Assembly: GCA_903941105.1 (NCBI GenBank) | Contig: CAJANL010000285.1 | Coordinates: 1-61,894, forward strand | From: an uncultured Rhodospirillaceae bacterium | GTDB lineage: Bacteria; Pseudomonadota; Alphaproteobacteria; Rhodospirillales; Magnetospirillaceae | Length of the DNA: 61,894 nucleotides | Direction of reading: 5' to 3' | In this document: piece after piece, positions 4,127 through 39,530 of the stretch | How positions within the stretch are numbered: the first letter of the stretch is position 1 | Layout of the letters: every line of letters begins with the position of its first letter | Notes under the pieces: generated by a model | Database searches by the model: none | What the model was told of the DNA's origin: nothing | Seen by the model: only the letters and a program-made list of their open reading frames with translations | Made by a program: the position numbers and the translations under genes

Positions 4127-4662
4127 TGAGACGGACCGCCGCCCTCACCCTCGCCCTGCTGTTGGCCGCCTCGGCGGCTCAGGCGCATCGGTTGAAGCTG
4201 TTCGCCACGGTGGAGGGGGTGGCCATCCTCGGCCAGGCCTATTTCGCCGGTGGAGGTCCCGCCGCCGCTATTCCCGGCCGCCTGCTGGGTCCCGACGGTG
4301 CCACCGTCAGCGAATTCCGCACCGATGGCGAGGGCCGTTTCACCGTGACGGCGGCGGCCCGCCAGGACTACACCCTGGCGGTGGATGCCGGCGATGGCCA
4401 TGCCGCCACCTTCCGGGTCGGCGCCGACGAGCTGCCACACCAGTTGCCGGCAGGGGCCGCCTCGCCGGCGCCGCCCCCGATCACCCAGCCGCTCGGCCAA
4501 ATGGTGGAGGACGCGGTGGCCCGCCAGGTCCGGCCGCTGCGGGAACAGCTCGACGCCTACGAGGCCAAGGTGCGGCTGCATGACATCCTGGGCGGCATCG
4601 GCACCATCCTGGGAGTGTTCGGCATCGGCGCCTATCTCGCGTCACGACGGAGGTCGCCATGA
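4123..4662 (+). CDS. nikL: ECF nickel transporter accessory protein NikL
   Basis: This 179-residue protein has a signal peptide (residues 1-21, ending AQA), a mature start at His-Arg, a small Ig-like or carboxypeptidase-regulatory-like domain, a Pro-rich linker near residues 110-125, a short helical region and a C-terminal membrane helix (about 155-173) followed by RRR. That is the NikL layout: a periplasmic domain anchored in the inner membrane. It overlaps nikM and nikQ by 4 nt on each side. NikL replaces CbiN in nickel-type ECF systems. Confidence 0.82.
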   Translation: MMRRTAALTLALLLAASAAQAHRLKLFATVEGVAILGQAYFAGGGPAAAIPGRLLGPDGATVSEFRTDGEGRFTVTAAARQDYTLAVDAGDGHAATFRVGADELPHQLPAGAASPAPPPITQPLGQMVEDAVARQVRPLREQLDAYEAKVRLHDILGGIGTILGVFGIGAYLASRRRSP

Positions 4663-5366
4663 TGTCCCGTCTCGATGCCCGCACCCGCGTGATCCTCGCC
4701 CTGCTGTTCAGTGTGGCGGTGGTGGCCGAGGACCGGCTGGAGGCGCTGGTCGCCCTGCTGGGGCTGGCGATCGGACTGGCGGCGCTGGCCCGGCTACCGC
4801 TGAAGGGAACCGCCCGGCGACTGGTATCGCTGGAGGGATTCATGGTGGTGGTGCTGGCCATGCTGCCCTTCACCATGCCCGGCCGGCCACTGCTGGAGAT
4901 TGGGGGAATGGCGGCCTCGGCCGAGGGCCTTGCTCGCGCCGTCGCCATCGCGCTCAAGGCCAATGCCGCCGCGGTGGCGCTGCTGGCGCTGGTGGGCTCG
5001 CTCGATACGGTCGAGTTGGGGCGGGCGCTGGCGCGGCTGGGCGCCCCCGAGCGGCTGGTGCACCTGTTCCTCTTCACCGTGCGCTACCTGGAGGTGCCGG
5101 CCGCCGAATACCGCCGCCTGCGCATCGCCATGAAGGCGCGTGGCTTCCAGGCCTCCACCGGCCTCCACACCTGGCGCAGCCTGGGCTGCCTGTTCGGCAT
5201 GCTGCTGGTGCGGGCGATGGAGCGCGCCGAGCGTATCGATGCCGCCATGCGCTGCCGCGGCTTCGATGGCCGCTTCCACCTCGGCGATGAGGCCCGCCCC
5301 GGCGCGTTGGACTGGGGCTTCGCCACCGCCTCGGCCACGGCGGTGGCGCTGGTGATGATGCTGTGA
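4659..5366 (+). CDS. nikQ: ECF transporter T component NikQ (CbiQ family)
   Basis: This 235-residue membrane protein belongs to the EcfT/CbiQ family. It has four to five hydrophobic segments and a cytoplasmic region carrying the two conserved short Arg-Gly motifs that contact the ATPase, visible here as AMKARGFQA (about residues 157-165) and AMRCRGFDG (about 196-204). It couples ATP hydrolysis by NikO to substrate movement through NikM. It overlaps nikL by 4 nt, and the GTG start of nikO overlaps its stop. Confidence 0.9.
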   Translation: MMSRLDARTRVILALLFSVAVVAEDRLEALVALLGLAIGLAALARLPLKGTARRLVSLEGFMVVVLAMLPFTMPGRPLLEIGGMAASAEGLARAVAIALKANAAAVALLALVGSLDTVELGRALARLGAPERLVHLFLFTVRYLEVPAAEYRRLRIAMKARGFQASTGLHTWRSLGCLFGMLLVRAMERAERIDAAMRCRGFDGRFHLGDEARPGALDWGFATASATAVALVMML

Positions 5367-6031: not shown

Positions 6032-6355
6032 ATGCACGGCAAACACGACGGCGGCGAGACGCAGCCGCACGACCATGCCCACGAGCACAAGCACCAGCAC
6101 GGGCACGAACACACCCACGTGCATGTTCACCCGCATGATCATGGGGAAGAGGGGGGCGCCGGCGCCGGGCCGCACAGCCACGCCCACGCCCACACCCACA
6201 GCCACGGCCACCTGCACCAGCACAGCCATCCCCACGGCCACGACGGCGAGGGCGAGGCTCACGACCACGGCCACGACCAGCCCAAGCACGCCTGGAAGCC
6301 GCATGAGCACCGTCACGAGGACGGCGAACTCGAAGGCCACGAGCACGAGCACTGA
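6032..6355 (+). CDS. Extremely histidine-rich metal-binding protein
   Basis: This 107-residue protein contains 37 His (about 35%), mostly as alternating HxH pairs with Asp, Glu, Gly and Ser, and almost no hydrophobic residues. It should be intrinsically disordered and cytoplasmic, with no signal peptide. The start is supported by GAAGGAGGA upstream. It begins 15 nt after nikO, so it is probably cotranscribed with the nickel importer and may store or buffer Ni(II), like Hpn or the His-rich stretches of HypB. It has no GTPase or other enzymatic domain, so it is not HypB or UreE itself. Binding of zinc, cobalt or copper is equally possible from sequence. Confidence 0.88.
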   Translation: MHGKHDGGETQPHDHAHEHKHQHGHEHTHVHVHPHDHGEEGGAGAGPHSHAHAHTHSHGHLHQHSHPHGHDGEGEAHDHGHDQPKHAWKPHEHRHEDGELEGHEHEH

Positions 6356-6376
6356 TGGAGTGCGCCCGCCGTCTCC

Positions 6377-6763
6377 CTAGCGGTTCAGAGCCAGGGCGCC
6401 GACATGGCCCAGCCATACGCCGATCAGGCACAGCGCCACCGACAGCATCACGTTGAGTCCGGCCGACACCCATTCGCCGTCCTGCGCCAGCTTCAGGGTC
6501 TGCAGGCTGAATGACGAGAAGGTGGTGTAGCCGCCGCACAGCCCCACCATGACGAACTGCCGCCATTCTCCCGGCACCAGCAACCGGCCGTCCGGCACCG
6601 TCAGGGTGGCGAACAGGCCGATGACGAACGAGCCGGTGACATTGACCACCAGGGTCCCCAGCGGGAATGTCTGGCCGGCCCCCAACGCGGCCACGCCCGC
6701 CAGCCAGTGACGCAACACTCCGCCGATGGCGCTGCCGACCGCGACAAGTACATAAGTCAACAT
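6377..6763 (-). CDS. crcB: Fluoride channel CrcB/Fluc
   Basis: This 128-residue protein has four hydrophobic helices and the family motifs GxxxRH near the N terminus (GGVLRHW) and GGYTTFSSFS near residues 77-86, which carries the Phe and Ser/Thr residues of the fluoride pore. CrcB forms a dual-topology dimer that exports fluoride. The start is supported by GGGGAGG 8 nt upstream. The gene is convergent with the His-rich gene. I looked for a fluoride riboswitch in the 123-nt upstream interval and did not see its consensus. Confidence 0.92.
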   Translation of the reverse strand: MLTYVLVAVGSAIGGVLRHWLAGVAALGAGQTFPLGTLVVNVTGSFVIGLFATLTVPDGRLLVPGEWRQFVMVGLCGGYTTFSSFSLQTLKLAQDGEWVSAGLNVMLSVALCLIGVWLGHVGALALNR

Positions 6764-6886
6764 CCGGCACCTCCCCGGGCGACTATGCCTTTCAGCCCAA
6801 GCGCCGGCAAAGGTGAAATCATCTTTGGTTCAGGTATTGCGCCGAGACCACGCCGATGGTACGACCCAATGGTGTAGGATGGAGCC

Positions 6887-8164
6887 ATGATCATGAATGA
6901 TCTCGACACGGCCAGTCTCGATGCGGTTCTGGAGCAAAGTCCCATCGGCGTGTCCATCTCGCGCCGAAACGACGGCGTCATCGTTTTCGCCAATACCACC
7001 TTCACCAAACTGATCGGGGTAGCCAAGGCCGAGTTCGTCGGCAAGAAGGCGCGCGACTGGTATGTGGACGACGAACAGCGCACTGCCGTGGTCAAACACC
7101 TCAAGCGTCACGGCAGCGTCGACCATGCCGAGGTTCAGTTCCGCCGCGCCGACGGCACTCCGTTCTGGACGCTGCTGACCATCCGGCCCGCCATCTTTCA
7201 CGGCCACGAGGTCAACCTGGCCTGGATCTACGACATCACCGACCGCAAGGCCGCCGAGGAGCGGCTGCAACTGGCGGCCAAGGTGGTCGAGACCGCCAAC
7301 GAAGGCATCATGATCACCAACACGCATGGTGTGATCGAGGCGATCAACGGCGCCTTCACCCGGATCACCGGTTACAACGCGGACGAGGTCATCGGCAACA
7401 AACCCTCGATCCTCAAGTCCAACCGCCACGACCCCGACTTCTATGACGCCATGTGGAAGGCCATCGCCACCACCGGCCAGTGGCAGGGCGAAATCTGGAA
7501 CCGCCGGAAAAGCGGCGAGGTCTTCGTGGAATGGCTGTCCATTGCCACGGTGCGCGACGGCCAGGGCAAGGTTTCCCACATGCTCGGCATCTTCGCCGAC
7601 ATCACCAGCCGCAAGGAGGACGAGGAGCAGGTCTGGCGCCAGGCCAACTACGATGCCCTGACCGGCCTGCCCAACCGTGCCCTGTTCCTCGACCGCCTCA
7701 CCCAGGCCGTCAAGGCGGCCAAGCGCGACCGTGTCCGCTTCGCCCTGCTGTTCGTCGACCTGGACGGATTCAAGGCCGTCAACGACACCTGGGGCCATGC
7801 CACCGGCGACCTGCTGCTCCAGGAGGCCGGCGCCCGCCTGGCGGCGACCATCCGCGCCAGCGACACGGTGGCGCGCCTGTCCGGCGACGAATTCACCATC
7901 ATCCTGCAGCACGTCAACGACCGCGACGACATCGCCGTCATTGCCGCCAAGATGGTCGCCCGCCTGGCCGAGCCCTTCGATCTCGACGGCCAAGTCGCCA
8001 ACGTCCGCGCCAGCATCGGCATCGCCATGTTCCCCGACGACGCCGACGACGCCGCCACCCTGATCAAGCTGGCCGACCAAGCCATGTATTCGGTCAAGCG
8101 CACCGGCAAGAACAACTACGGCTTCCACACCCCCCCCGAGCGGTTGATTTACCCGCTGCAGTGA
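6887..8164 (+). CDS. Diguanylate cyclase with two PAS domains
   Basis: This 425-residue soluble protein has a PAS domain at about residues 10-120, a second PAS/PAC at about 130-245 and a GGDEF domain at about 255-415. The active-site loop reads SGDEF (residues 332-336) instead of GGDEF. An RxxD product-inhibition site (RASD, 323-326) lies exactly five residues upstream, and the metal-binding FVDLDGFK segment is intact. It should therefore make c-di-GMP under feedback control, in response to a ligand or redox cue sensed by PAS. There is no membrane segment and no EAL domain. The first of two closely spaced ATGs was chosen; the second is two codons later. Confidence 0.9.
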   Translation: MIMNDLDTASLDAVLEQSPIGVSISRRNDGVIVFANTTFTKLIGVAKAEFVGKKARDWYVDDEQRTAVVKHLKRHGSVDHAEVQFRRADGTPFWTLLTIRPAIFHGHEVNLAWIYDITDRKAAEERLQLAAKVVETANEGIMITNTHGVIEAINGAFTRITGYNADEVIGNKPSILKSNRHDPDFYDAMWKAIATTGQWQGEIWNRRKSGEVFVEWLSIATVRDGQGKVSHMLGIFADITSRKEDEEQVWRQANYDALTGLPNRALFLDRLTQAVKAAKRDRVRFALLFVDLDGFKAVNDTWGHATGDLLLQEAGARLAATIRASDTVARLSGDEFTIILQHVNDRDDIAVIAAKMVARLAEPFDLDGQVANVRASIGIAMFPDDADDAATLIKLADQAMYSVKRTGKNNYGFHTPPERLIYPLQ

Positions 8165-10342: not shown

Positions 10343-11590
10343 ATGTTCCTCGCCGTCGACCCCCTTGCCGAAGACATCGACCTCATCGCCGAGATGACAG
10401 GTGATTTCGCCCGCTCGCGAGATATCGAGGCGACGCTGCGCCATGGGCTGATGCGTATCACCAACCGGCTGGGCGCCGAAGCCGCCTCGCTGTTCCTGAT
10501 GGACGAGGCCACCGGCGAACTGGTCTGCCGCGCCTGCGTCGGCCCCGCCGACGTCACCGGCCTGCGGTTGCCCAAGGGGGCCGGCATCGTCTGGCGCACG
10601 GTGATGGAAAACACCCCCCAGATGGTCGAGGACACCCGGTCCGACCCCGATTTTGCCGCCGTGGTCGACCGCTCCACCGGCTTCATCACCCGCAGCATCC
10701 TGTGCGCCCCCCTGTCGGTGCGCGACGACCGGCTGGGGGCCATCGAGCTGTTCAACAAGCACCAGGCCCGCAGCTTCTCGGCCGGCGATCGCCAACTGTT
10801 GCAGGCGTTGTCGTCGTCGGCGGCGCTGGCGCTGGTCAATGCCCACATGGCCGCCGCCATGGCCGAGCAGGAGGCACTGAAGCGCGAGCTGGCCCTGGCC
10901 GCCGACATCCAGCGCGCCATGCTGCCCAAACCGCAGCAGCCGGAGTCACCCATCCACGGCATCAACCTGCCGGCCCGCGGCGTCTCGGGCGACTTCTACG
11001 AGATCATGCCCCTGGTCGACGGCCGTATCGCCTTCGCCATCGCCGACGTCTCGGGCAAGGGCATGAACGCCTCGCTACTGATGGCCAAGACCGCCAGCCT
11101 GTTCCGCTGCCTCGCCAAGCGCATCGAGGGGCCGGGGCCGCTGCTCGCCGCCATCGACGCCGAGTTGCTGGAGACCGGCCATGCCGGCATGTTCGTCACC
11201 ATGGTGGCCGGTGTGCTCGATCCCGCCGGCGGCCGGGTGGTGCTGGCCAATGCCGGCCACGAGCCGCCGCTGCTGGCCCGCGACGGCCGCTTCGAGGCGA
11301 TCCTTGGCACTATGCCTCCGTTGGGCGTCTTGCCGGGCCTATTCGCCGACGGTTGCCCCGAGAACACCATCGACCTCGCCGGGGGAACGCTCTATTTGTT
11401 CACCGACGGCCTGACCGAGGCGCGCACGTGCGATGGCGCCATGCTGGGCGGCGCCGGGGTCGAGCATCTGCTGACCGCCAACGCCCACCGCCCGGCTGCC
11501 GAGCGCCTGACCGCCCTGGTGACGGCGGTGGACCAGGGCGGCGGATTGCGGGACGACGTCACCATTCTTCTGGTGGAGGACAGGCGGTGA
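10343..11590 (+). CDS. GAF-domain SpoIIE/RsbU-type serine phosphatase
   Basis: This 415-residue protein has a GAF domain (about residues 25-175), a short linking helix, and a PP2C-type SpoIIE phosphatase domain (about 190-415). Visible metal-site motifs include SGDFYE, DVSGKG and the C-terminal DDVTILLV. Such enzymes dephosphorylate a STAS anti-anti-sigma factor, and the GAF domain would sense a small ligand. The GTG start of the RsbW-like kinase overlaps its stop by 4 nt, and the STAS gene follows, so all three parts of a partner switch are adjacent. Confidence 0.9.
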   Translation: MFLAVDPLAEDIDLIAEMTGDFARSRDIEATLRHGLMRITNRLGAEAASLFLMDEATGELVCRACVGPADVTGLRLPKGAGIVWRTVMENTPQMVEDTRSDPDFAAVVDRSTGFITRSILCAPLSVRDDRLGAIELFNKHQARSFSAGDRQLLQALSSSAALALVNAHMAAAMAEQEALKRELALAADIQRAMLPKPQQPESPIHGINLPARGVSGDFYEIMPLVDGRIAFAIADVSGKGMNASLLMAKTASLFRCLAKRIEGPGPLLAAIDAELLETGHAGMFVTMVAGVLDPAGGRVVLANAGHEPPLLARDGRFEAILGTMPPLGVLPGLFADGCPENTIDLAGGTLYLFTDGLTEARTCDGAMLGGAGVEHLLTANAHRPAAERLTALVTAVDQGGGLRDDVTILLVEDRR

Positions 11591-37634: not shown

Positions 37635-37886
37635 GCCGAACCCCGCACCTGTTCCTCCCCCCTCCGCCCCGCGCTTGGTTACGGTCCACCGTCCCTTTGA
37701 CCGTCTTGCCCGCGTCGTCGCCTGACGGATCAACCAGCGTGTACTGAAGACATGAGTGCCGATGCGGCTACGCCAAGCCGCTTCGCGGGAGATTGCCGGA
37801 TGCCGGGGGATCTGGCAATTTTGGCAATAAAGGTGGCGAGGCCCTTGCCAGCGGTCTCGCCACCCCCTTATATTCTGCGCTCCGGC
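37635..37886. other. Intergenic region before the tRNA-Gly scar
   Basis: No gene or convincing reading frame is visible between the kinase stop and the broken tRNA. The interval holds a direct GGCAA repeat near 37813-37826 and, at its right end, the tRNA-type promoter described below. Its base composition is lower in GC than the flanking genes. Confidence 0.5.
37845..37874 (+). promoter_or_regulatory. Sigma-70-like promoter for the tRNA-Gly 5' half
   Basis: TTGCCA at 37845-37850 and TATATT at 37869-37874 are separated by 18 nt. The broken tRNA begins 12 nt after the -10 box, as expected for a tRNA promoter. It would now drive the integrase fragment. Confidence 0.65.
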
Positions 37887-37924
37887 GCGGGTGTAGCTCA
37901 ATGGTAGAGCAGAAGATTCCAAGC
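37887..37924 (+). pseudogene. tRNA-Gly 5' half, broken in the anticodon arm
   Basis: The first 29 nt (37887-37915) are identical to the 5' end of the intact tRNA-Gly(CCC) at 38954-38982. The next nine nt resemble its anticodon loop with two changes (ATTCCAAGC versus CTTCCCAAGC). After 37924 all similarity ends and no 3' half follows on this strand. It is a tRNA pseudogene and looks like one end of an old integration event. Confidence 0.85.
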
Positions 37925-38045
37925 AAAACCTAAAGTTGTAATTTTCCTTCAGCGATATCAATGACTTAGCCCTGGACTGAAAGCCAAGGCAGAGTTATTT
38001 CGACCGTCTTTACCACTCTGACGAGTAAAGAGGCGGCGAAACGGT

Positions 38046-38384
38046 ATGGCAAACATCCGCAAGCGTGGCGATAGCTGGCAAGCCAAGGTTCAACGCAAAG
38101 GCATGCCGGTTCTTTACCAAACCTTCGCCAAAAAATCCGACGCGGCAGTTTGGGCACGGCAGCTTGAAGCGTCCATTGACCGTGGTGAAACGCCCGACGA
38201 GGTCGGGCCGATGGCGACCACCACGTTTGGCGAACTGATTGCCCGCTGCCAAGCGGAAGTGACAGTCACGAAGCGAAGTGCCCGGCAGGAGAATTACCGC
38301 ATGAAGCGGTTCCTGGCCCACCCCATGAGCAAGCTTCACCTGAAGGATTTGACCACCGGTGTCTTTGCGGGATACCGAACTTGA
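38046..38384 (+). pseudogene. Tyrosine-recombinase (integrase) N-terminal fragment 1
   Basis: The 112-residue frame begins MANIRKRGDSWQAKV, the arm-type DNA-binding domain of phage/ICE integrases, and continues into the start of the core-binding domain, ending ...LTTGVFAGYRT. A full integrase of this type has about 330-400 residues; the catalytic domain with the R-H-R-Y tetrad is absent. It lies about 120 nt after the broken tRNA-Gly. It is homologous to fragment 2 at 39147-39530, which stops at nearly the same position. Possibly it could act as a DNA-binding peptide, but the simplest reading is decay. Confidence 0.8.
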
Positions 38385-38799
38385 CCAGGGCCGGCTTCGG
38401 CCTCCAGGAAGCCGGAACACGCCGTTCCCGGTCAGTTGCTGTTCGGGCTCGCCCTTCAGTCGGTGCGATCAAGCTCCACCTCCCGAAAAGCAGCAGGCCA
38501 AACAAGGATGCGGCCCAATATGTGACGACCTTGCTTCATTGGCATGCATCTGAACGGCTGGACGGCCATGGAACGTCGTCTTTCAGCCTCTGCAAACTGG
38601 TGGATGTACCCGGCGGGGTCATTCATGACGCCCCAAAGGCGATGACCCGCCGCCGTACCGACATTGAAGCGGCTTGCCAAGAAATAGCTATTCTGTGGCC
38701 CCACCTGTAGGAAACTGCTGAACCTTCCCGGAAAATTGAAAGGCACAGTCGCACGGTCGGTTAAGCCCAGCGTGGCCGAAACCGTCTTCTTGCCACGAT
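38385..38799. other. Degenerate integrative-element DNA
   Basis: No gene can be confidently called. A plus-strand TTG frame (38381-38710, 109 codons) and a minus-strand ATG frame (38456-38746, 96 codons) overlap almost completely; neither resembles a family I know and at most one can be real. The stretch is less GC-rich than its surroundings, which fits transferred DNA. Confidence 0.45.
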
Positions 38800-38838
38800 T
38801 GGGGCGGGGGAAGGGAATCTAACCCTCGGCGGAAGCTT
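38800..38838 (-). pseudogene. Inverted, degenerate tRNA-Gly 3' half
   Basis: Read on the minus strand, this 39-nt stretch matches the last 39 nt of the intact tRNA-Gly(CCC), including the T arm and CCA, at 34 of 39 positions. It is in inverted orientation relative to that gene, 115 nt upstream of it. One of the five changes alters the acceptor stem and one alters the T loop, so it is not functional. It is probably an attachment-site remnant. Confidence 0.8.
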
Positions 38839-38877
38839 AAAAAAGCCGCCACTCTTCTGCCACTCCGAATGCCGGAC

Positions 38878-38905
38878 TTGCCTAAAAACGGGCATCTGGC
38901 ATAAT
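38878..38905 (+). promoter_or_regulatory. Promoter of the intact tRNA-Gly(CCC)
   Basis: TTGCCT at 38878-38883 and CATAAT at 38900-38905 are 16 nt apart. The expected transcript would start near 38912 and carry a leader of about 42 nt, which includes the hairpin at 38921-38944. Confidence 0.5.
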
Positions 38906-38920
38906 GCCGGTCCCCACGCA

Positions 38921-38944
38921 GAAATGGCTGTTTTCAGCCATTTC
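38921..38944. repeat. Perfect 10-bp palindrome in the tRNA-Gly leader
   Basis: GAAATGGCTG and CAGCCATTTC flank a TTTT loop, ten nt before the tRNA start. It could help 5' processing of the tRNA or be part of an attachment site. Confidence 0.7.
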
Positions 38945-38953
38945 CATGATAGG

Positions 38954-39027
38954 GCGGGTGTAGCTCAATGGTAGAGCAGAAGCTTCCCAAGCTTACGACG
39001 AGGGTTCGATTCCCTTCACCCGCTCCA
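38954..39027 (+). tRNA. tRNA-Gly(CCC)
   Basis: The 74-nt gene (with encoded CCA) starts GCGGGTGTAGC and ends CACCCGCTCCA with full acceptor pairing. The anticodon loop TTCCCAA gives CCC. The T loop GGTTCGATTCC is intact. It is immediately followed by integrase fragment 2 and preceded by the inverted half copy, showing that this gene has been used as an integration target. Confidence 0.95.
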
Positions 39028-39146
39028 AGCCCATCTCCTAACGTTTTCAACACGTTAGTGAGCCAGCCTCTCGGGCGTTAAGCCGCCAAAAACCCCTGAA
39101 TCAGCCGCTTTGTCACAGTTTTGGCACAGCGAGGGCTGATTCAACC

Positions 39147-39530
39147 TTGGCAAGCATCAGAAAACGCTCGGGAAATTGGCAGGCTCAAATTCGCCGTGCC
39201 GATCAAAAAACGCTTTCGAGAACGTTCTTGAGGAAGGCGGATGCGGTCGCCTGGGCGCGCGCCAAGGAGGCTGAACTCGACGTAGCGGAGGAATCCGCGC
39301 ATGTGGTCGAACTGGCTTCAACCACGCTTGCCGACCTGATTGAACGGTATCGGGACACGGTCACCCCCACGAAGAAGAGCGCCTACCAAGAGCGGTATCG
39401 GCTCAACAGGTTGCTGCGGCATCCCGTCTGCAAACTCACCCTGGATCGGCTGACCACTGGCGCCTTTGCCCGCTACCGTGATGAAAGGCTTCAAAGCGTT
39501 GGTTCGCCGGGATGCACCACCGCTCTCTAA
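39147..39530 (+). pseudogene. Tyrosine-recombinase (integrase) N-terminal fragment 2
   Basis: The frame starts at TTG (MASIRKRSGNWQAQI) and encodes 127 residues. It aligns with fragment 1 along its whole length (SIRKR/NIRKR, TLADLIERY/TFGELIARC, KLTLDRLTTGAFARYRD/KLHLKDLTTGVFAGYRT), then leaves the family sequence about ten residues later. The catalytic domain is missing. It begins 120 nt after the intact tRNA-Gly, the standard position for an integrase whose element used that tRNA. Confidence 0.8.

Follow-up and report, generated by a model that had tools for sequence, protein, structure and literature searches.

How does an integrative element come to use one half or the other of a transfer RNA (tRNA) gene? 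The question is raised by positions 37887 to 39530 of a 61,894 nt contig from an uncultured Rhodospirillaceae bacterium; the whole of this contig is hereafter the window. The locus holds a broken 5′ half of a tRNA-Gly(CCC) gene, an inverted 3′ half, an intact copy and two integrase fragments. Its sequence identifies it as what remains of a tyrosine-integrase element, one of a rare type that displaces the 5′ half of its target tRNA (5′-type; elements using the 3′ half are 3′-type). The element left the 5′ half on its left; on its right stands an intact tRNA whose predicted promoter is a different one. The inverted 3′ half is likely a former attachment half that predates a switch from one side of the tRNA to the other; we put the probability of this reading at roughly 60%.

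The anatomy of the locus is firm (Table 1). A first-pass annotation had placed three tRNA pieces and two integrase fragments here, and ARAGORN, Rfam, alignment and shuffles confirmed all of them in position. The att-like direct repeats that it described were also recovered: the first 29 nt of the broken and intact copies are identical and lie 1067 nt apart. The tRNA likeness of the inverted stretch (34 of 39 positions) gave a Smith-Waterman score of 58. Shuffled sequences had a mean of 15.9 and a maximum of 26, and 0 of 300 reached 58. Neither integrase fragment scores in Pfam by itself. Intact relatives of both belong to PF00589 (E=1.8e-26 for the integrase 1 relative). At the left end, 514 bp of the window (37864-38377) are 96% identical to Paramagnetospirillum caucaseum SO-1 (L034:6111-6624; our handles G, C and L denote genomes, contigs and loci). 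The locus is recognisable as a deletion derivative in which the left end, a scrap of cargo and the right arm are left. Deletion has removed most of the element, the part of the integrase gene that encodes the catalytic region among it. The integrase 2 fragment is provisionally assigned to a separate 3′-type element on the other side of the tRNA. It starts 119 nt past the tRNA, and its intact relative in P. caucaseum starts 114 nt past the same tRNA; no displaced 3′ fragment was found downstream within the window.

Longer forms of the element exist. We searched 41 genomes (the window's own and 40 relatives) with the window stretch. Two long matches, 4.1 kb apart, were found in P. caucaseum SO-1 (G024). 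The order at this locus (L034) is chromosomal promoter region, 5′ half (nt 1-37), integrase 1, cargo, inverted 3′ half, promoter, tRNA-Gly(CCC) and integrase 2. The 5′ half is at 6134, the intact integrase 1 gene at 6293-7276 and the tRNA at 10957, so that 4.8 kb separate the 5′ half from the tRNA. Both integrases are intact (327 and 329 amino acids, respectively, both PF00589). In G045, a single-contig genome, the two ends are 22.8 kb apart (G045:C1:3128039-3150869; L076 and L104) and enclose a complete set of type I restriction-modification genes, hsdM, hsdS and hsdR. A 73-residue piece in G024 resembles the end of the G045 HsdR by eye. Integrase 1 of G045 is interrupted by an insertion sequence, which we take to be of the IS66 type. 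Directly before its 5′ half, G045 has a second right arm. This is an attachment-like (attP-like) junction, with the right arm followed by the 5′ half and the integrase, as in a tandem array. The 5′ half matches nt 1-37 of the tRNA at 100% in G024 and G045, and nt 1-40 at 100% in G002. The annotation had suggested looking for element-bearing relatives, and G024 and G045 are such; its deduction of more than one integration plus an inversion or deletion is borne out as to two elements and a deletion. The search that it proposed for an empty site gave no syntenic one: plsY is present in 53 of 55 family genomes and, among 30 loci with 1.5 kb flanks, the window's alone contains a tRNA.

Separately, G033 carries another 5′-type element at tRNA-Gly(CCC) (L066, G033:C163, 4015-9030). 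It has 40-nt identical 5′ halves and an unrelated 412-residue integrase. No inverted copy was found in it; the best score was 14, a value reached by 261 of 300 shuffles.

Where does the inverted half come from? The 246-bp right arm was searched against 317 genomes of the order, and seven have a match. Full arms are present in the window's genome, G024, G045 (two) and G044; matches in G179, G023 and G146 are partial or short. The inverted 3′ half is in five of the five full arms, from four genomes, 100-115 nt before the tRNA or the 5′ half. The annotation had favoured a local inversion. Because the same copy is in the same place in G024, G045 (twice) and G044, it must instead have come with the element, and we regard it as a built-in part of the element's right end. 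In the window, G024 and one G045 arm (G045b), 38 of 38 columns of the inverted block are identical. Across the five related arms, 6 of 38 columns vary within the block, compared with 76 of 191 elsewhere (Fisher p=0.005). No other long block of the right arm is as well conserved as the inverted half, and this conservation is suggestive only. The arm stretch outside the inverted copy matched nothing beyond the same right arms among the loci that we fetched.

The segment between the inverted copy and the tRNA has a different likeness. In G024, G044 and the other G045 arm (G045a) it is 72-73% identical, over 87-93 nt, to DNA upstream of the G179 tRNA-Gly(CCC) (L106; E 2e-11 to 3e-12). The likeness starts just past the inverted copy, and no recognisable inverted copy lies upstream of the G179 tRNA (z 1.4). 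A promoter scan of 1.45 kb returned exactly two promoter-like sites (shuffle mean 0.5). One precedes the broken half and the other the intact tRNA. Both hexamers and the spacing of the second are kept in all five right arms. Upstream DNA of the intact tRNA-Gly(CCC) in L084 aligns weakly with the left flank of the window element (69% over 102 nt, E=9e-5). In G024, the DNA to the left of the broken half aligns with upstream DNA of intact tRNAs in L084 (79%) and L020 (73%). Therefore, the native promoter appears to have stayed with the broken half. The captured one would serve the intact tRNA, its activity being a prediction.

Table 1. Features of the tRNA-Gly(CCC) locus, in window coordinates.
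Feature	Position	Strand	Basis
Predicted native tRNA promoter (TTGCCA-18-TATATT), before the broken half and first integrase remnant	37845..37874	+	Consensus match only
Displaced tRNA-Gly(CCC) 5′ half, ending in the anticodon loop; left attachment site	37887..37920	+	97% to nt 1-34
Integrase 1 (5′-type), N-terminal remnant	38046..38384	+	88% to residues 1-125 of the intact P. caucaseum integrase; one stop
Cargo remnant, marking the internal deletion	38378..38459	+	82 nt at 95% to G045 element cargo (L104:7148-7229)
Right arm stretch outside the inverted copy	38723..38799	+	Aligns with G024, G045 (two copies) and G044; 75-83% by columns
Inverted degenerate tRNA-Gly 3′ half (nt 36-74), built into the element's right end	38800..38838	-	34/39 identical, E=1e-7
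Probable captured host-type tRNA-Gly upstream segment, right arm	38858..38953	+	Likeness to DNA upstream of the G179 tRNA-Gly(CCC)
Predicted element-borne promoter of the restored tRNA (TTGCCT-16-CATAAT)	38878..38905	+	Consensus match only
Intact, restored tRNA-Gly(CCC); right attachment site	38954..39027	+	ARAGORN; Rfam RF00005, 69.3 bits
Integrase 2, N-terminal remnant of the putative 3′-type element beyond the tRNA	39147..39530	+	DNA 86% to Insolitispirillum peregrinum (L109:9888-10359), 84% to G023

The same layout recurs at a second target. Relatives of integrase 1 were sought in the 55 family genomes, 27 of which have a match at 1e-40. A clade of these integrases lies behind a 5′ half of tRNA-Arg(CCG) in G044, G006 (two), G052 and G003, at five loci (L078/L201, L079/L200, L080, L081 and L082). 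The 5′ half and the intact tRNA-Arg are 7.2 kb apart in G044, 11.6 kb in G006 and 7.3 kb in G018. An integrase of the integrase 1 family, whole or partial, lies between the halves in all three (83 residues at 64% in G018). Shorter spans, with no integrase left, are found in G057 (1.1 kb), G063 (1.2 kb) and G062 (2.7 kb). An inverted tRNA-Arg copy precedes the tRNA in G044, G006 and G057, and weakly in G018. It extends from nt 15-76 at its longest to nt 40-75. When the G006 right arm was used as query, 31 of the 317 genomes gave a match, in many cases confined to the tRNA letters. Matches over most of its length occur in G059, G057, G024, G018, G058, G065 and the window's own genome.

In the window's own genome, the tRNA-Arg(CCG) gene with the inverted-copy right arm is at 1734-1810 of L263 (G000:C181), so that both targets bear this arm in one strain; no 5′ half was found within 1.7 kb to its left. 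Across the tRNA-Arg(CCG) loci L258-L275 the 5′ half is nearly invariant by eye, and relatives differ in the T stem of the 3′ half, for which several alleles exist. It looks as if 3′-type elements had repeatedly replaced the 3′ half. We also considered that the inverted copy tracks the allele of the host tRNA. This seemed so for G044 and G006, and was dropped once 15 tRNA-Arg loci had been compared.

Both tRNA halves are seen at nine loci, three at tRNA-Gly and six at tRNA-Arg. An integrase of this family is kept between the halves at six of the nine (the window, G024, G045, G044, G006 and G018), and all six have the inverted copy, which is weak in G018. As a control, we scored 151 distinct pairs of a tRNA and its upstream DNA, drawn from the fetched loci and hence not a random sample. 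The 13 best inverted matches to the tRNA 3′ part (z 19.7 to 4.9) all belong to tRNA-Gly(CCC) or tRNA-Arg(CCG) genes with these right arms. The next best (z 4.3) are an unrelated tRNA-Val and the G057 inverted copy itself, read as a tRNA.

The integrases were then placed in a tree of 81 sequences. Of these, 51 follow either an intact tRNA or a 3′ piece on the same strand, seven are of the 5′-type and six have an inverted 3′ half before the integrase. One of the remaining integrases lies before a tRNA 5′ end, 15 have layouts that are unreadable and one is ambiguous. Two changes are needed to account for the seven 5′-type rows, and well-supported branches force both. Integrase 1 is sister to the integrase 2-type enzymes of tRNA-Gly (support 100/97). 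The two are 51% identical and use opposite halves of the same tRNA-Gly, around one anticodon loop. At L133 (tRNA-Ala), L157 (tRNA-Arg CCT) and L122 (tRNA-Phe), the integrase lies beside the displaced 3′ half and reads back, with the intact tRNA at the opposite end. In the frame of the integrase, the order is reversed 3′ half, core, integrase. This looks like the inverted copy of the 5′-type minus the promoter and 5′ half.

Other layouts were encountered in passing. At L106 (G179:C136), 1520-1967 and 4234-4681 form a 448-bp inverted repeat of the tRNA-Gly 3′ half, arm and integrase start. By eye, it encloses HigBA/ImmA toxin-antitoxin-like genes, and a serine resolvase-like gene is outside. A fourth layout occurs at L210 (G304:C17, 10040-11202): here an intact tRNA-Ser lies on the opposite strand, with its 5′ end 99 nt from the integrase start. 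A well-supported related clade (L139, L143, L144, L146-L148 and L152) had no tRNA that we could find in front; its members are presumably candidates for shufflon-type recombinases.

How much of this is new? The comparisons that follow draw on passages or abstracts of the papers cited. The annotation had held that known elements duplicate the 3′ part of a tRNA; elements that displace the 5′ part are in fact on record (PMC4383910, PMC8371274). In the Islander catalogue, 159 of 3919 islands displace a 5′ fragment of the tRNA gene (PMC4383910). These islands share with the window a tyrosine integrase, a tRNA target and a displaced 5′ fragment upstream of the intact tRNA, and crossover centred on the anticodon defines one of their classes. 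Our loci have the same traits. An intact tRNA with a same-orientation 5′ fragment upstream is present in the window, G024, G045, G044, G006, G057, G018, G063 and G062. The integrase between the halves belongs to PF00589 in L034 and L081, and only N-terminal pieces of it are left in the window and G018. The 5′ pieces end at nt 34-42 and the 3′ pieces of the tRNA-Gly elements start at nt 28-38 (L069-L072, L074 and L077), consistent with crossover at the anticodon. Unlike the window, the islands have no inverted fragment described in the passages, and the Islander pipeline rejects fragments in the opposite orientation (PMC4383910).

For pTN3-like integrases, the attachment site is also the tRNA 5′ half, and the restored tRNA uses the promoter of the integrase, a situation termed seldom in bacteria (PMC8371274). 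Those integrases are archaeal, however, and the passages mention no inverted tRNA copy. In ICEKp1, the host tRNA-Asn promoter drives int, which lies downstream of that promoter once integrated, but the abstract describes no exchange of tRNA promoters (PMC13023037). Phages with tRNA-dependent lysogeny carry a tRNA sequence of the isotype of their target; it is a complete functional tRNA, and the host tRNA is not rebuilt (PMC10865867). Displacement of a 5′ tRNA fragment, and a host tRNA promoter driving int, can be classed as already known from these sources. Literature searches, covering listings, abstracts and passages, gave no recognised description of an inverted tRNA copy in an attachment arm, and one may occur in print.

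The comparisons above establish both ends of the element, its longer relatives, the inverted copy in the right arm, the matching tRNA-Arg(CCG) layout and two separate changes to the 5′-type in the tree; its anatomy, conservation and recurrence are thereby shown as far as sequence can show them. From these we infer a switch of tRNA side and binding of the inverted copy by the integrase. Crossover would take place in the anticodon loop. In the circular form, a promoter and a 5′ half would lie across the core from the integrase. Integration would then yield, from left to right, the host promoter and 5′ half, the integrase, the cargo, the inverted 3′ half, the element promoter and the intact tRNA. 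The ancestor may have been a 3′-type element with its 3′ half inverted relative to the integrase, a layout present in the same integrase family. Such an element could have entered the tRNA reversed, so that on the left the integrase came to adjoin the host promoter and 5′ half. Reversed entry would be possible because the core in the anticodon stem is a near palindrome. Imprecise excision, joining the old half to DNA that preceded the promoter, might then have formed a circle that captured the host promoter and 5′ half. The product would be a 5′-type attachment site with the old half as its built-in inverted copy. The old half would persist because the integrase would still bind it.

A more general proposal goes with this. 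Integrases of one family may change tRNA sides, and an element that has switched would supply the promoter from which the host tRNA is expressed. The inverted copy, an old half kept as a working integrase site, would then mark such switches. We hold this version tentatively, at somewhat less than even odds.

Several observations weigh against these proposals. The two changes in the tree are two gains only if its root lies outside both 5′-type clades. The nearest relatives of integrase 1 are integrase-proximal 3′-type enzymes (100/97), not the integrase-distal kind that a switch would start from. The only hint of an integrase-distal enzyme beside integrase 1 is L122 (90/90), and the L122 integrase has two stops. 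Inverted 3′ halves with their arm also lie downstream of the tRNA in the sister clade (in G179 448 bp, 99.8% identical; in I. peregrinum 112 bp, 95%), and in P. caucaseum 56 bp of inverted arm lie at the end of a contig. These could be products of a different process and may indicate another origin for the inverted copies. Some inverted tRNA-Arg copies extend past the core, to about nt 15; the 3′ copies of ordinary elements likewise start at nt 13-38. Three of the loci with both halves lack an integrase, and of these G057 has a clear inverted copy, G062 a trace and G063 none. The p-value for conservation of the inverted block rests on five related arms. By eye, the inverted copies and the target disagree in their loop letters, which makes recombination there unlikely now. 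The inverted tRNA-Arg copies also mostly keep one T-stem allele, by eye, while the host tRNAs vary. This would be expected of a relic, not of a site that needs to match the present tRNA, and speaks against such a role.

The strongest competing explanation, which we nevertheless consider unlikely, is that the inverted half arose or was recruited as a binding site for the integrase or an excisionase in its own right, and was never an attachment half. A 5′-type element would need such a site, since its usual arm sites lie farther from the core, displaced by the tRNA half and promoter. The conservation of the block within the right arm, its presence in both 5′-type clades and, by eye, flanking short repeats like those before the integrase are all in keeping with this. 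However, a binding site need not cover the T arm and acceptor stem. Moreover, the 5′-type element of G033, with its unrelated integrase, has no inverted half; neither has the G063 remnant, and G062 has only a trace.

Less probable again is a snap-back duplication. Here, a template switch during replication would have copied the tRNA 3′ part and its flank, inverted, to a place upstream, and an element would have picked it up later. The inverted tRNA-Arg copies that go back past the core to about nt 15, and the near-identical inverted repeats of G179 and I. peregrinum near these integrases, fit such a process. But the 3′ attachment copies of ordinary elements elsewhere also start at nt 13-38, and the stretch outside the inverted copy matches only the same right arms. 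Independent events would also be needed at two tRNAs, each one caught by a 5′-type element.

It is very improbable that the inverted copy is what remains of an element-borne tRNA gene that made up for the split host tRNA, in the manner of tRNA-dependent lysogeny. Phages are known to carry tRNAs of this kind (PMC10865867), and ARAGORN calls the G057 inverted copy (L259:10192-10266) a tRNA-Arg(cct). Yet the attachment site itself rebuilds the host tRNA, and the 5′ part is hardly recognisable, by eye, in the Gly copies. None of the inverted copies at 18 loci was called a tRNA by Rfam covariance models at E up to 5, which argues against a functional tRNA there. Finally, several integrations followed by a local inversion of the tRNA 3′ half in this genome, which two integrase remnants and three tRNA pieces within 1.6 kb might suggest, are rejected on account of the relatives that share the inverted copy at the same spot (G024, G045 and G044).

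We return to the reading of the inverted copy as a former attachment half. It bears on the question raised at the outset, the choice of tRNA half by an integrative element. At both targets the 3′ half of the tRNA concerned is found inverted in the same position, which provides a sequence mark by which switches could be found and tested. If the reading is true, a mobile element takes over the promoter of a tRNA gene, and the scrambled look of the tRNA-Gly(CCC) and tRNA-Arg(CCG) loci in these bacteria is in part explained. A catalogue of islands that discards inverted tRNA fragments would then lose the record of such switches.

With respect to other replicons, 2168 plasmid records match integrase 1, none of them at 60% identity or above. 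In viral contigs, the best integrase 1 match among the 80 loci retained from 143 is 39%. The tRNA-Arg integrase matches two viral loci, at 42% and 27%. Far from this locus, the window opens with a minus-strand tRNA-Ser(GGA) gene at 21-113.

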